Part shown: piece after piece, positions 15,536 to 19,126 of the stretch
Numbering within the stretch: the stretch's first letter is position 1
Layout: the number at the start of each line of letters is the position of its first letter
Source: a virus
Virus record (IMG/VR): IMGVR_UViG_3300038954_000074
Coordinates: 1 to 24,284 of that record
Length of the DNA stretch: 24,284 nt
Strand: one strand, 5' to 3'
Program-made: the position numbers and the translations under genes
Notes under the pieces: generated by a model
The model's input: only the letters and a program-made list of their open reading frames with translations
What the model was told of the DNA's origin: nothing
Databases searched by the model: none

Positions 15536-15777
15536 ACCTGTTCTGCCTCCTGTAGCGCCAAGTCCAGTTGATCAATGGCGCTCTCCATCTTGACGCGGAG
15601 CTCCATCGCAATCTCGGCCCATCGGACTACGCGCTCTTGGAGCTCCTTCTCTCGGGCCTCGTAGTCTGCGAGCTTCACGTACAGTTCGTTCGGATCTCCC
15701 GGTAGGTTGTTCTCGCTGAGCTCGTGCATGGGCGGGTTATCGTCCACGACGGCTGCGGGGAAGTAGATGTTCGGCAT
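15532..15777 (-). CDS. small coiled-coil protein, unknown
   Basis: An 81-residue acidic protein with a disordered N-terminus (about 1-30) and a coiled-coil C-terminus (YVKLADYEAREKELQERVVR through LQEAEQV). Its ATG shares one base with the methyltransferase stop codon (TAATG), a coupling arrangement different from the usual ATGA. Function unknown. Confidence 0.68.
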   Translation of the reverse strand: MPNIYFPAAVVDDNPPMHELSENNLPGDPNELYVKLADYEAREKELQERVVRWAEIAMELRVKMESAIDQLDLALQEAEQV

Positions 15778-16700
15778 TAGCTGCTCCTCCTGTTCTCCAG
15801 TGCTGCGATTGTTGCGAATATCGGGTACGCCTGCTGGGGTACTACTGCGTTTCCGAGACTTCGCAATCGGTCCACCCGATTGGGAATCCCATGAGCCACT
15901 CGACCCACGTCGGGTTCAGTTGCCCACCATTCGGCGTGATTCCATACTTCGGATCCGTGAGTTGTGCTTTCCGGTTGCCTCCCTTCCAGACGTTCGCGTC
16001 CGGCGTCGCTACCATCTTCGCGAGGCCCTGCAGGCTCGGCCTCGCCTTCGTGTGGTCGCCCCGGTCGTACTGGTAATCGCCCCGCTTGTGGTCGATCGCG
16101 GTGGGAGTCGGGAACATTTTCACGTATTGATGCAACGACGCTCCGCTTTGATGTCCGTTCCCTAACTTGCCGCCGCGAATCCCGTGACCATTTGGGCTGA
16201 GGCCCGTGTCCGGCGTGGGCAACAATGAATACTCGGTCCCTCCTGTGCGGGGCGCCGACGCTTGCAGCCGGATAATGGAACGGGAGTGTTTCGTATCCTT
16301 CACGCTCCAGGTCAGAAAGCACAAGCTCGAACTCGGCTCCATCGTTGAGAGAAAGTAGTCCAGAAACGTTCTCTGCCACGACGTATGTCGGGGATAGCTC
16401 GCGAACAACTCGTAGCATCTGCGGCCAGAGGTAGCGGTCATCCTCCGCGCCTCCTCGCTTCCCGGCCTGAGAGAACGGCTGGCACGGGAATCCTCCGGAA
16501 ATAACGGTAGGGTAGATCCATCGTTCATCCGCTGTTACCTCCGCGATGTCGGTGAGTCGTGGTACGTCCGGCCAGTGTCGCTCGAGCACGCGCAGCGCAT
16601 ACGGGTCGCGCTCTACCTGCAGGATCGTGCGAAAACCGGCGGCCTCGGCGGCCAGGTCCAGACCGCCGATACCGGTGAAAAGCGATACGTGCGTCATCAT
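15777..16700 (-). CDS. cytosine-5 DNA methyltransferase (Dcm-type)
   Basis: A 307-residue enzyme that would transfer a methyl group from S-adenosylmethionine to cytosine C5 in DNA. Motifs: I, LFTGIGGLDLA (residues 7-17); IV, GGFPCQPFS with catalytic C73; VI, ENV (110-112); VIII, RRDRVFIVA (153-161); IX/X, GRVAHGIPNRVDRLRSLGNAVVP (about 266-288). The region between VIII and IX (target recognition, about 162-265) is polar and repetitive, probably because a second gene is read through it in another frame. The ATG at 16700 overlaps the previous stop by ATGA; an upstream open extension lacks support. Likely protects phage DNA from host restriction. No cognate restriction enzyme is present, as expected for an orphan phage enzyme. 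Confidence 0.92.
   Translation of the reverse strand: MMTHVSLFTGIGGLDLAAEAAGFRTILQVERDPYALRVLERHWPDVPRLTDIAEVTADERWIYPTVISGGFPCQPFSQAGKRGGAEDDRYLWPQMLRVVRELSPTYVVAENVSGLLSLNDGAEFELVLSDLEREGYETLPFHYPAASVGAPHRRDRVFIVAHAGHGPQPKWSRDSRRQVRERTSKRSVVASIRENVPDSHRDRPQAGRLPVRPGRPHEGEAEPAGPREDGSDAGRERLEGRQPESTTHGSEVWNHAEWWATEPDVGRVAHGIPNRVDRLRSLGNAVVPQQAYPIFATIAALENRRSS
15842..16528 (-). CDS. gene nested inside the methyltransferase, phage LPTP/VEWLMGFP family
   Basis: A 228-residue product read from the same strand as the methyltransferase but in another frame, entirely within it (methyltransferase residues 58-287). It has its own Shine-Dalgarno, GGAGGT at 16537-16542, eight bases before the ATG. The sequence is not shadow-like: CFLTWSVKDTK (70-80), SAPRTGGTEYSLLPTP (91-106), FPTPTAIDHKRG (139-150), ATPDANVWKGG (174-184) and LNPTWVEWLMGFPIGWT (204-220) are the recurring blocks of a phage protein family I know from genomes carrying Dcm genes, function unknown. 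The last block resembles the motif IX region of other phage methyltransferases. Presence of the family is firm; expression is inferred. Confidence 0.78.
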   Translation of the reverse strand: MNDGSTLPLFPEDSRASRSLRPGSEEARRMTATSGRRCYELFASYPRHTSWQRTFLDYFLSTMEPSSSLCFLTWSVKDTKHSRSIIRLQASAPRTGGTEYSLLPTPDTGLSPNGHGIRGGKLGNGHQSGASLHQYVKMFPTPTAIDHKRGDYQYDRGDHTKARPSLQGLAKMVATPDANVWKGGNRKAQLTDPKYGITPNGGQLNPTWVEWLMGFPIGWTDCEVSETQ

Positions 16701-16891
16701 CTTGCCCGTCGTGGATCCTGGCGCGCGGCGGCCGGCGTCGTCAATGCGACGATCTCGGCCGCGCACGCTTCCCATTGCTGGCGAGCCGCGTCTGTCTCCG
16801 GTCCGGATCCGTGGAACACGAGCCGAAACCATTCAGTGTGCGCGGCGCGGCCACGCTCCAAGGCCGCGCGCAGTTCGTCGCGGTTGATCAT
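16697..16891 (-). CDS. small helical protein, unknown
   Basis: A 64-residue protein, MINRDELRAALERGRAAHTE at the start, then DAARQQWEACAAEIVALT. Two helices with a basic tail. ATGA overlap with both the zinc-ribbon gene upstream and the methyltransferase downstream, so the three are co-translated. Function unknown. Confidence 0.7.
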   Translation of the reverse strand: MINRDELRAALERGRAAHTEWFRLVFHGSGPETDAARQQWEACAAEIVALTTPAAARQDPRRAR

Positions 16892-17160: not shown

Positions 17161-17910
17161 CTACAATCCGCAGTAGCCTTCGCATTCGTTGCCCCATAGA
17201 TCCCCCTGATCCTCGGAGAAGTCCACGTTTTCAAGCGGGCGCGCGCTCCTGTGAAGGAACGTTTCATCCTGCAATCGATCAAGCTTCCGGATCGAGCGGT
17301 CGAACGCCACCGCGTCGGCAAACTCTTCCGGCGAGTCCATTTTCAGGCGACGCCAGTAGTGGTCGTCATGGAACGGGCATCCAATGCAACTTGACTTTGG
17401 AACGTCCCATCCGCGTGCCTCAAGGTAGATCCTGCAGGCATTGCGGTCGATGCGTGCATCGATCAGCGGCCAGCGATGCGTTGTGTACTTCACAAAGCTG
17501 TCTTTCATCCGGTGGGCTTCATCGATGCTGATTCCGACCCATACCTCGGCTGGGTTCTTTGCCGACGCTCCGAGCTCGCGACACTTCTTCTGAATCGGAG
17601 CAACCTTGTATTCGCGCGTGCATTGCCGGCGCAGCATCGATACTTTGCCCGTCGTTTCGTTCTTGGTGAATAGCGGCATCGATGCGAAACGAGAGTCTGA
17701 TAGCGCGTCTGCTCGTAGGTTTCCCGCGCTGACTGTGAGAATCGGAATTTCGTTCAGCGCTTTTAGCCGATCAAGGTGGTCGTAGACTGCCTGCGGCTCC
17801 CATCCTGTATCTGCGAAGATTGCGTAGTCAGCTCTCGGAAGCTCGCCGCTGGCTGACATTAGGTACAGCGTGGTTGATTGAACGCCGGCCCCAAGACTGA
17901 TAACGGTCAC
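17161..17910 (-). CDS. PAPS-reductase-like PP-loop ATPase
   Basis: A 249-residue protein of the phage phosphoadenosine-phosphosulfate-reductase-like family (adenine nucleotide alpha hydrolase fold). The PP-loop is the variant ISLGAGVQSTTLYLM (4-18), followed by YAIFADTGWEP. Cysteines lie in QCTREYKVAPIQ, SSCIGCPFHDD and at the extreme C-terminus, NECEGYCGL; the latter two pairs could hold an Fe-S cluster. Classic members activate sulfate; the phage members have no proven substrate, and sulfur transfer to a nucleic acid base or backbone is a reasonable possibility. It is ATGA-coupled to the terminase nuclease gene, so it is made with the packaging proteins, and it sits directly before the methyltransferase operon. 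Confidence 0.85.
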   Translation of the reverse strand: MTVISLGAGVQSTTLYLMSASGELPRADYAIFADTGWEPQAVYDHLDRLKALNEIPILTVSAGNLRADALSDSRFASMPLFTKNETTGKVSMLRRQCTREYKVAPIQKKCRELGASAKNPAEVWVGISIDEAHRMKDSFVKYTTHRWPLIDARIDRNACRIYLEARGWDVPKSSCIGCPFHDDHYWRRLKMDSPEEFADAVAFDRSIRKLDRLQDETFLHRSARPLENVDFSEDQGDLWGNECEGYCGL

Positions 17911-18608
17911 TTTTGCCTCCCTTGGTCGCGATATAGTCGTAGCGGGTTATACGACGGCGCCTGTTCCTCGCCCCGGATGGGGGCCGGGACGGCGATTCCG
18001 AACGCCCGCTCGAAGTACCAGACTGCGATCGCCGCGGCGAGTACGATGTCGTCGTGCTCGCCCTCCTCGGCGCTGTACTTTTCGTTCTTCGCCTGACTGG
18101 TCGTGCGCCTGAATACGCGCAGCTCGTTCTCGAATTGCTCGGCGAGCTCGAGCGCCGGCGCGACCTGCAGCCTGCGATTCTGCGCGACTACCTGCAGGGC
18201 GCTGACGAGATCGCGTTTCGGGACGGTGTAGCCGACCTCGTTCTGCGCTACCGATGTACCGCCGGTGATCGTGACGCCGACCACGGCGATCCCGCCGCCG
18301 ATCATCTGCTGGACCACGGGGTAGCCGACGCCAGTGGCGTCCATCACGATCTGGATGTCCTGCCGGAATAGCTGCGGCATGTCCAGGATAGAGCGGATCC
18401 GCGCGATCAGTTGTCGGTACTCGATACCGAGCGGGAGACGCTCCATCAGCGGTACCTCATACGTCGAGTAGATCATGCGCCGTTCGCTCAGCTCTTCCCA
18501 CGTACCGGGAAGCGCGCGCCCCGGCTGCAGGCGTTCGCTTCTGCGCACGAGCACGATCGCGCTGTGGTCCTGGCGCGTTCCCACGTCCACGCCCATCACG
18601 TACTTCAC
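17907..18608 (-). CDS. terminase large subunit, nuclease domain as separate gene
   Basis: A 233-residue protein that begins immediately at the RNase-H-like nuclease domain: YVMGVDVGTRQDHSAIVLV (D8, D14), IVMDATGVG (D90) and GEHDDIVLAAAIA (D186, D187). These are the acidic residues that bind two metals and cut the genome at packaging ends. The start is GTG at 18608, overlapping the stop of the preceding gene as GTGA; the longer open frame upstream is a shadow of that gene. The ATPase half of the terminase is a different gene, 515 bases away (19123-19926). Confidence 0.88.
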   Translation of the reverse strand: MKYVMGVDVGTRQDHSAIVLVRRSERLQPGRALPGTWEELSERRMIYSTYEVPLMERLPLGIEYRQLIARIRSILDMPQLFRQDIQIVMDATGVGYPVVQQMIGGGIAVVGVTITGGTSVAQNEVGYTVPKRDLVSALQVVAQNRRLQVAPALELAEQFENELRVFRRTTSQAKNEKYSAEEGEHDDIVLAAAIAVWYFERAFGIAVPAPIRGEEQAPSYNPLRLYRDQGRQK

Positions 18609-19126
18609 GGCTCGGGTACCTCGTAGCCTTCCGGCCGCGACGCCGGCCTGAATCGGTGATCCATCCAGCGGAGCTCTCGGGCCCGCGCAAGTTCGTCGAT
18701 CTCCATGGGATCCGGTTGCTGCGCGCTCCCTCCCCATGCGGCATCGGCTATCGCGGTACATAGGCCGAACCATGCTTTCCACGGGATGACCGTGGGCTCT
18801 GACGTTGGCTTGTCCTCGCGCATCCACCACGGATTTGGTACGTCCTCGCGCTTCATCGTGCGCAGCTCTTTCGCATACGCTTCCGCGTTGTCCATCTGTA
18901 CGGCGATCAAGTGCGAGGCACATTCCTCGATCGTCGCGTTGCGAGCTCGTTCTACATAGTCGTCGTTCATTGGTTCCCCCCACTGTATCTTGTATGTTGT
19001 CGTCAACGGATCCGGCCATTTTGTGCCGTAGAGAAGCTCGTTCGATCGTTCTTTGCTCAGCGTCTTGGCGAGTTGGTGCACGTGCGCCTCGATCGCCCGT
19101 TTGCGCATTTCGTCTATCATGCTCAT
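18605..19126 (-). CDS. unknown gene inserted between the two terminase halves
   Basis: A 173-residue protein, MSMIDEMRKRAIEAHVHQLAKTLSKERS at the start. It has a middle segment DYVERARNATIEECASHLIAVQMDNAEAYAKELRTM, a WKAWFGLCTAIADAAWGG block and a DHRFRPASRPEGYEVPEP tail. The Ala-Glu-Cys helical segment resembles small accessory phage proteins that carry AAIEECA-type helices. No homing-endonuclease motif (HNH, LAGLIDADG, GIY-YIG) is visible, and the gene has overlapping start and stop (ATGA upstream, GTGA downstream), so it is coupled to both terminase parts. ATG 19126 chosen by that overlap; 19120 possible. Confidence 0.75.
   Translation of the reverse strand: MSMIDEMRKRAIEAHVHQLAKTLSKERSNELLYGTKWPDPLTTTYKIQWGEPMNDDYVERARNATIEECASHLIAVQMDNAEAYAKELRTMKREDVPNPWWMREDKPTSEPTVIPWKAWFGLCTAIADAAWGGSAQQPDPMEIDELARARELRWMDHRFRPASRPEGYEVPEP

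Follow-up and report, generated by a model that had tools for sequence, protein, structure and literature searches.

Lee, Kam and Shaw reportedly showed in 1995 that the small chain of the cytosine-5 (C5) DNA methyltransferase M.EcoHK31I is read from an alternative frame within the gene of its large chain, and that both chains are needed for methylation; M.EaeI is similar to M.EcoHK31I. M.EcoHK31I (YGGCCR) is a two-polypeptide enzyme; the large subunit carries motifs I-VIII and X while the small subunit carries motif IX (PMC3404938). A comparable arrangement is found in the window, the whole 24,284-nucleotide (nt) stretch of the IMG/VR virus contig IMGVR_UViG_3300038954_000074 analysed here. 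On the minus strand, a C5 methyltransferase gene (15777-16700) encloses, in its +1 frame, a complete 228-codon open reading frame (ORF) with an ATG start (15842-16528). With a probability of about 0.85, the outer product (alpha) and the nested product (beta) are two overlapping-frame polypeptides of one C5 DNA methyltransferase.

The small chain in another frame inside the gene of the large chain recalls what is said of M.EcoHK31I; the likeness is one of motif layout. As in M.EcoHK31I, motifs I-VIII and X are found in alpha and a motif IX-like block in beta (PMC3404938). M.EcoHK31I is a direct precedent for this distribution of motifs, and the window enzyme is of that already known architecture. 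M.EcoHK31I is part of a restriction-modification system; in contrast, the window gene is a phage gene, and PADLOC recognised no restriction gene in the neighbouring genes that were tested. M.AquI (CYCGRG) is resembled by 34 relatives with staggered or split genes. The M.AquI-type small chain carries motifs IX and X, and so does the nested chain of these relatives; the window differs in that alpha keeps motif X and the whole of beta is nested. New here are the generality of the arrangement, the statistical evidence of dual coding, the assignment of the recognition region to the nested chain and the finding that the architectures form a series.

The outer frame matches C5 methyltransferases (PF00145 3e-42, residues 46-242 of a longer Dcm-like ORF, 15777..16832 (-); phrog_363 1.1e-79). 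The ATG at 16700 (MMTHVSLF...) is more likely than 16832 to be the start of the outer gene because an upstream ORF (16697-16891) ends there. C5 motifs I, IV (PCQ), VI (ENV), VIII (RxR) and X (GNA) are present in alpha and are invariant or nearly so in 89 relatives. The recognition domain and motif IX are not in the alpha chain; the Pfam match stops at residue 242. The AlphaFold2 (AF2) model of alpha is confident at residues 1-165 and 275-307; about 166-272 is of low confidence (predicted local distance difference test, pLDDT, about 40-50) and is predicted to be disordered. Foldseek matches the alpha model to the large domain of M.HhaI only (about 164 columns, 1.6 A). Since this linker is predicted to be disordered and is also unconstrained, as described below, alpha is judged from sequence and model to have no recognition domain. 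Taken by itself, alpha is an incomplete methyltransferase; the recognition region and motif IX that it lacks are supplied by beta.

The nested frame matches phrog_1008 (2.8e-29) and has no match in Pfam or NCBIfam, which know only the outer frame. PHROG 1008 and PHROG 363, which match beta and alpha respectively, are both labelled 'DNA methyltransferase'; the labels are silent on the two being overlapping halves of one enzyme. Positions 284-311 of phrog_1008 are motif X, which in the window is found in the other (alpha) frame. Beta contains PTP repeats followed by an LNPxWVEWLMGFPxGWT block, which looks like motif IX; the block, LNPTWVEWLMGFPIGWT in the window, occupies the place of that motif.

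Nested codons begin on the second base of outer codons, so that outer third bases are nested second bases; the nested gene reaches from motif IV into the first part of motif X. Its start context is GGAGGT-AACAGCGG-ATG, with 8 nt between GGAGGT and ATG. The codons of the outer gene were permuted synonymously 5000 times with outer protein and codon usage kept fixed; the longest +1 open run in the window is 230 codons, against 94 on average after permutation (p=0.0002). The same test gives p<0.05 in 97 of 108 non-redundant relatives. An ATG with a Shine-Dalgarno (SD)-like site near the nested start is present in 50 of 108 relatives, where 16.4 are expected.

Synonymous-site constraint, a check suggested by the first-pass annotation of this DNA, gives a clear result. 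Where conserved alpha residues have fourfold-degenerate codons, third-base entropy averages 1.91 bits upstream of the overlap (11 sites), which is close to random, and 1.32 bits within it (22 sites; p=2e-5); as an example, one conserved alanine is GCT in 98 of 105 sequences. Among loci matching both profiles and aligned on a landmark in alpha, alpha third-base entropy is 0.1-0.8 across the motif IX-like block and 1.7-1.9 just past it, around the nested stop. Substitution rates, from frame-neutral pairs chosen at the DNA level, change along the gene. At alpha positions 1/2/3 they are 0.093/0.065/0.410 before the overlap, the ordinary outer-frame pattern; 0.125/0.070/0.214 over the catalytic motifs (IV-VIII), a pattern of double constraint; and 0.368/0.142/0.136 over the recognition region, a clean nested-frame coding pattern. 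Amino-acid identity over the recognition region is 0.565 for alpha, 0.785 for the nested frame and 0.551 for the third frame; between motifs VIII and X, alpha is conserved no better than a non-coding frame. These patterns indicate that the nested ORF is a real gene and that both frames are under protein-level selection. The first-pass annotation had described a complete 228-residue gene out of frame inside the methyltransferase, a GGAGGT eight bases before its ATG, and real conserved sequence in both frames. The first is upheld by the ORF, the family match and the permutation test, the second can be read directly from the DNA, and the third agrees with the third-base entropy and substitution patterns.

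The nested gene is widespread. With the nested protein as query, at least 597 related stretches are found in IMG/VR and 347 in one-per-species bacterial genomes; the latter belong to many different phyla, among them Bacillota, Actinomycetota, Pseudomonadota, Bacteroidota, Acidobacteriota, Nitrospirota and Spirochaetota. In all 84 of the 84 loci first examined, found via the nested protein, the nested frame lies inside Dcm in the same +1 phase. This answers how often matches of the 228-residue product are nested in Dcm, and it refines the earlier claim of a family found beside phage Dcm genes: the family does accompany Dcm, but inside it and in one phase at nearly every locus. A nested-protein query is biased toward nested-type loci; hence two further searches were made with the outer protein. 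A single-sequence query finds a nested match in 27 of 27 loci. Of 78 usable loci found with an alpha profile, 76 encode the motif IX block in +1; among those 76, motif X is in the outer ORF in 74 and in another ORF in two. Many loci are metagenomic, and some (L140, L143, L180, L182, L197) have joint frame breaks, which may be sequencing errors or pseudogenes. As a control, 19 ordinary C5 methyltransferase genes were taken from the same bacterial genomes; their +1 frame is interrupted by 9-34 stops, and their nested-family match is absent or only marginal; overlapping-type genes in those genomes have +1 open runs of 192-318 codons.

The overlap was noticed earlier in single genomes: phage Shelly gp56 is annotated as 'g55 internal gene', and K1ind2 ORF28 overlaps methylase ORF29. 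A literature search gave no paper that describes the overlap in phages, and the name 'Mte8' appears in annotations only. An EcoHK31I-like system was sought in E. coli genomes; both loci examined there hold prophage-like copies and nothing else of this kind. For the prophage copy of E. coli XYEH3314 (L235 2863-4032), RefSeq gives two pseudogene fragments of a DNA cytosine methyltransferase, in the outer frame only. The Roseovarius chromosome OX638333.1 has five nested-type loci (L115, L117, L118, L120, L121) at separate places with the same match statistics, which suggests repeated prophages. At one locus (L072 2740-3900) the outer frame is intact and the nested frame has early stops (a 20-codon open run at the match start); this is a possible natural loss of beta.

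The relatives fall into a series of architectures. In mycobacteriophages WillSterrel, DillTech15 and prophiFSIL01-1, a single-chain enzyme has PTP repeats and an LNPxFxEWMMGWP block in its own reading frame, after motif VIII and before motif X, and a profile of the motif IX block matches two of these three with about 97% probability. The likeness of LNPTWVEWLMGFP to motif IX, proposed in the first-pass annotation, looks right given this placing of the same segment. In the 34 staggered or split relatives, alpha ends soon past motif VIII (median 7 residues), and the nested ORF, with a median length of 358 codons, runs on through the recognition region, motif IX and motif X, with an overlap of ~320 nt. 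A quick tree of the catalytic domains, which has strong support for few of its branches and gives no direction of change, requires at least 9 changes to account for the staggered form; well-supported branches force 5 of these. Nested and staggered forms seem to interconvert.

WillSterrel gp71 (L087 2293-3465) has a recognition region and motif IX block of the same kind as beta, all in one frame, unlike the window. Its +1 frame keeps a truncated N-terminal half of beta close to that of the window (LLPTPETGMSPNGHGRRGGKVGNGHQSGASL; 43% over residues 14-139). This truncated half is a sign of recombination; gp71 looks like a recombinant of a single-chain methyltransferase with the truncated beta half in the +1 frame.

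Several results weigh against placing the recognition region in beta. The confident profile match to the single-chain enzymes covers the motif IX block only, not the whole region; the PTP-repeat part matches them weakly (34-53 bits). Structure prediction, also suggested in the first-pass annotation, succeeds for alpha outside the linker and is poor for beta alone (pLDDT 61.8; predicted template modelling score, pTM, 0.28). A fold search with this weak model gives no match, and a search of the Protein Data Bank (PDB) with the beta profile gives nothing meaningful. Because the model is poor and no fold is matched, the recognition-domain claim for beta rests on sequence and position. In addition, the recognition domain of M.EcoHK31I is predicted in its large subunit (PMC3404938), unlike the one proposed for the window enzyme.

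The lack of a known fold for beta would suit a complete methyltransferase alpha overprinted by an unrelated protein, such as an inhibitor or a DNA-binding protein; so would the alpha frame staying open to motif X and the usual outcome of overprinting, which is an unrelated protein. This explanation is unlikely: with its linker unconstrained and predicted to be disordered, alpha would have no recognition domain; a beta-type segment sits in frame in the single-chain enzymes; and motif X is carried by beta itself in the 34 relatives.

Programmed frameshifting would have ribosomes read alpha to motif VIII and then slip into the nested frame, yielding a fusion enzyme that includes the recognition region of beta. 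Single-chain forms exist, and in the split relatives alpha ends just past motif VIII, at the point from which the nested frame carries on. Frameshifting is nonetheless quite improbable, since beta of the window has its own SD and ATG and this combination is in excess across relatives. Moreover, the first ~100 codons of beta (over motifs IV-VIII; alpha codons 68-160) are constrained too, and slippage beyond motif VIII gives no reason for this. A fusion in the window would also be without motif X unless the ribosome slipped back. Beta is predicted to be initiated independently, from its own SD and ATG. A frameshift-made second form of the methyltransferase had been raised in the first-pass annotation; with a separate start and ribosome-binding site and a constrained N-terminal segment, it is not the best fit. 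Ancient duplication with frame change, raised there as well, fits less well than a second subunit with recognition region and motif IX.

That the second frame is a mere untranslated shadow of conserved Dcm codons is very improbable and was rejected: beta blocks do overlie Dcm motifs and some information is common to both frames, but alpha-synonymous third bases are constrained (entropy), the frame is stop-free against permutation, DNA-pair substitutions show the nested frame better conserved than alpha over the recognition region, and ordinary C5 methyltransferases have many stops in that frame.

In the two-chain enzyme, alpha would bind S-adenosylmethionine (AdoMet) and provide the catalytic cysteine, with motifs I-VIII and X joined by the disordered linker. 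Beta would begin with an N-terminal segment overlying motifs IV-VIII and continue with the PTP repeats of the target recognition region and with motif IX. Both chains would assemble in trans and rebuild a two-domain C5 enzyme; dimer formation and activity are inferred from the sequences. Such an enzyme may methylate phage DNA at a sequence picked by beta. Orphan phage methyltransferases usually protect against host restriction; the most likely purpose here would likewise be to shield phage DNA from it. Overlap of the genes would keep both chains linked in transmission, and they may be co-translated.

Annotation usually shows a phage or prophage cytosine methyltransferase of this kind as one gene and leaves the nested one out. 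Probably, specificity in this large phage family lies wholly with the nested beta chain rather than with alpha, motif X repeatedly switches frames in evolution (nested, staggered, single-chain), and many one-protein phage 'Dcm' annotations are really two-frame heterodimers. If beta is needed, cloning alpha on its own would yield an inactive enzyme, and it would make no sense to predict specificity from alpha. Two superimposed frames coding two halves of one enzyme, with three architectures among many relatives, make the origin of overlapping genes testable.

Table 1. Features of the methyltransferase locus in the window.
Feature	Position	Strand	Evidence
Alpha: C5 methyltransferase catalytic chain (motifs I-VIII and X; C73 in GGFPCQPFS)	15777..16700	-	PF00145; AF2 model; Foldseek match to M.HhaI large domain only
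Beta: nested 228-residue protein, +1 frame	15842..16528	-	phrog_1008 2.8e-29; constraint tests
GGAGGT Shine-Dalgarno of nested gene, 8 nt before ATG	16537..16542	-	Sequence; excess of ATG with SD-like site in relatives
Alpha motif IV (GGFPCQPFS), overlaid by N-terminal residues of beta	16470..16496	-	G70, P72, C73, Q74, S77 invariant in A3 alignment
Alpha motif VIII region (APHRRDRVFIVA)	16218..16253	-	R154, R156 invariant in A3 alignment
Putative beta recognition region, LPTP / FPTPTAIDH repeats; alpha frame here an unconstrained disordered linker	15929..16231	-	Substitution pattern; alpha pLDDT about 40-50
Beta motif IX-like block LNPTWVEWLMGFPIGWT, dual-coding with alpha EPDVGRVAHGIPNRVDRL	15869..15919	-	Alpha third-base entropy
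Alpha motif X (LGNAVVP), contains beta stop codon	15837..15857	-	L282, G283, N284, A285, V287, P288 nearly invariant in A3 alignment

Head, tail and connector genes are located on the same strand of the window as the methyltransferase locus. Just upstream of the methyltransferase is a 3'-phosphoadenosine 5'-phosphosulfate (PAPS)-reductase-like gene (17161-17910 (-); phrog_424 1.6e-41; PADLOC SspD 6.4e-17). Phages C72C1 and BS-TP4 likewise have a PAPS-reductase-like gene near the methyltransferase; a general link between the two was rejected, as only 6 of 107 viral loci have both. The PAPS-reductase-like gene is adjoined by a gene for a 370-residue protein (17907-19019 (-)), which is weakly similar to the nuclease half of the terminase large subunit (phrog_27743; phrog_2 1.1e-4; Pfam Terminase_6C 0.093).
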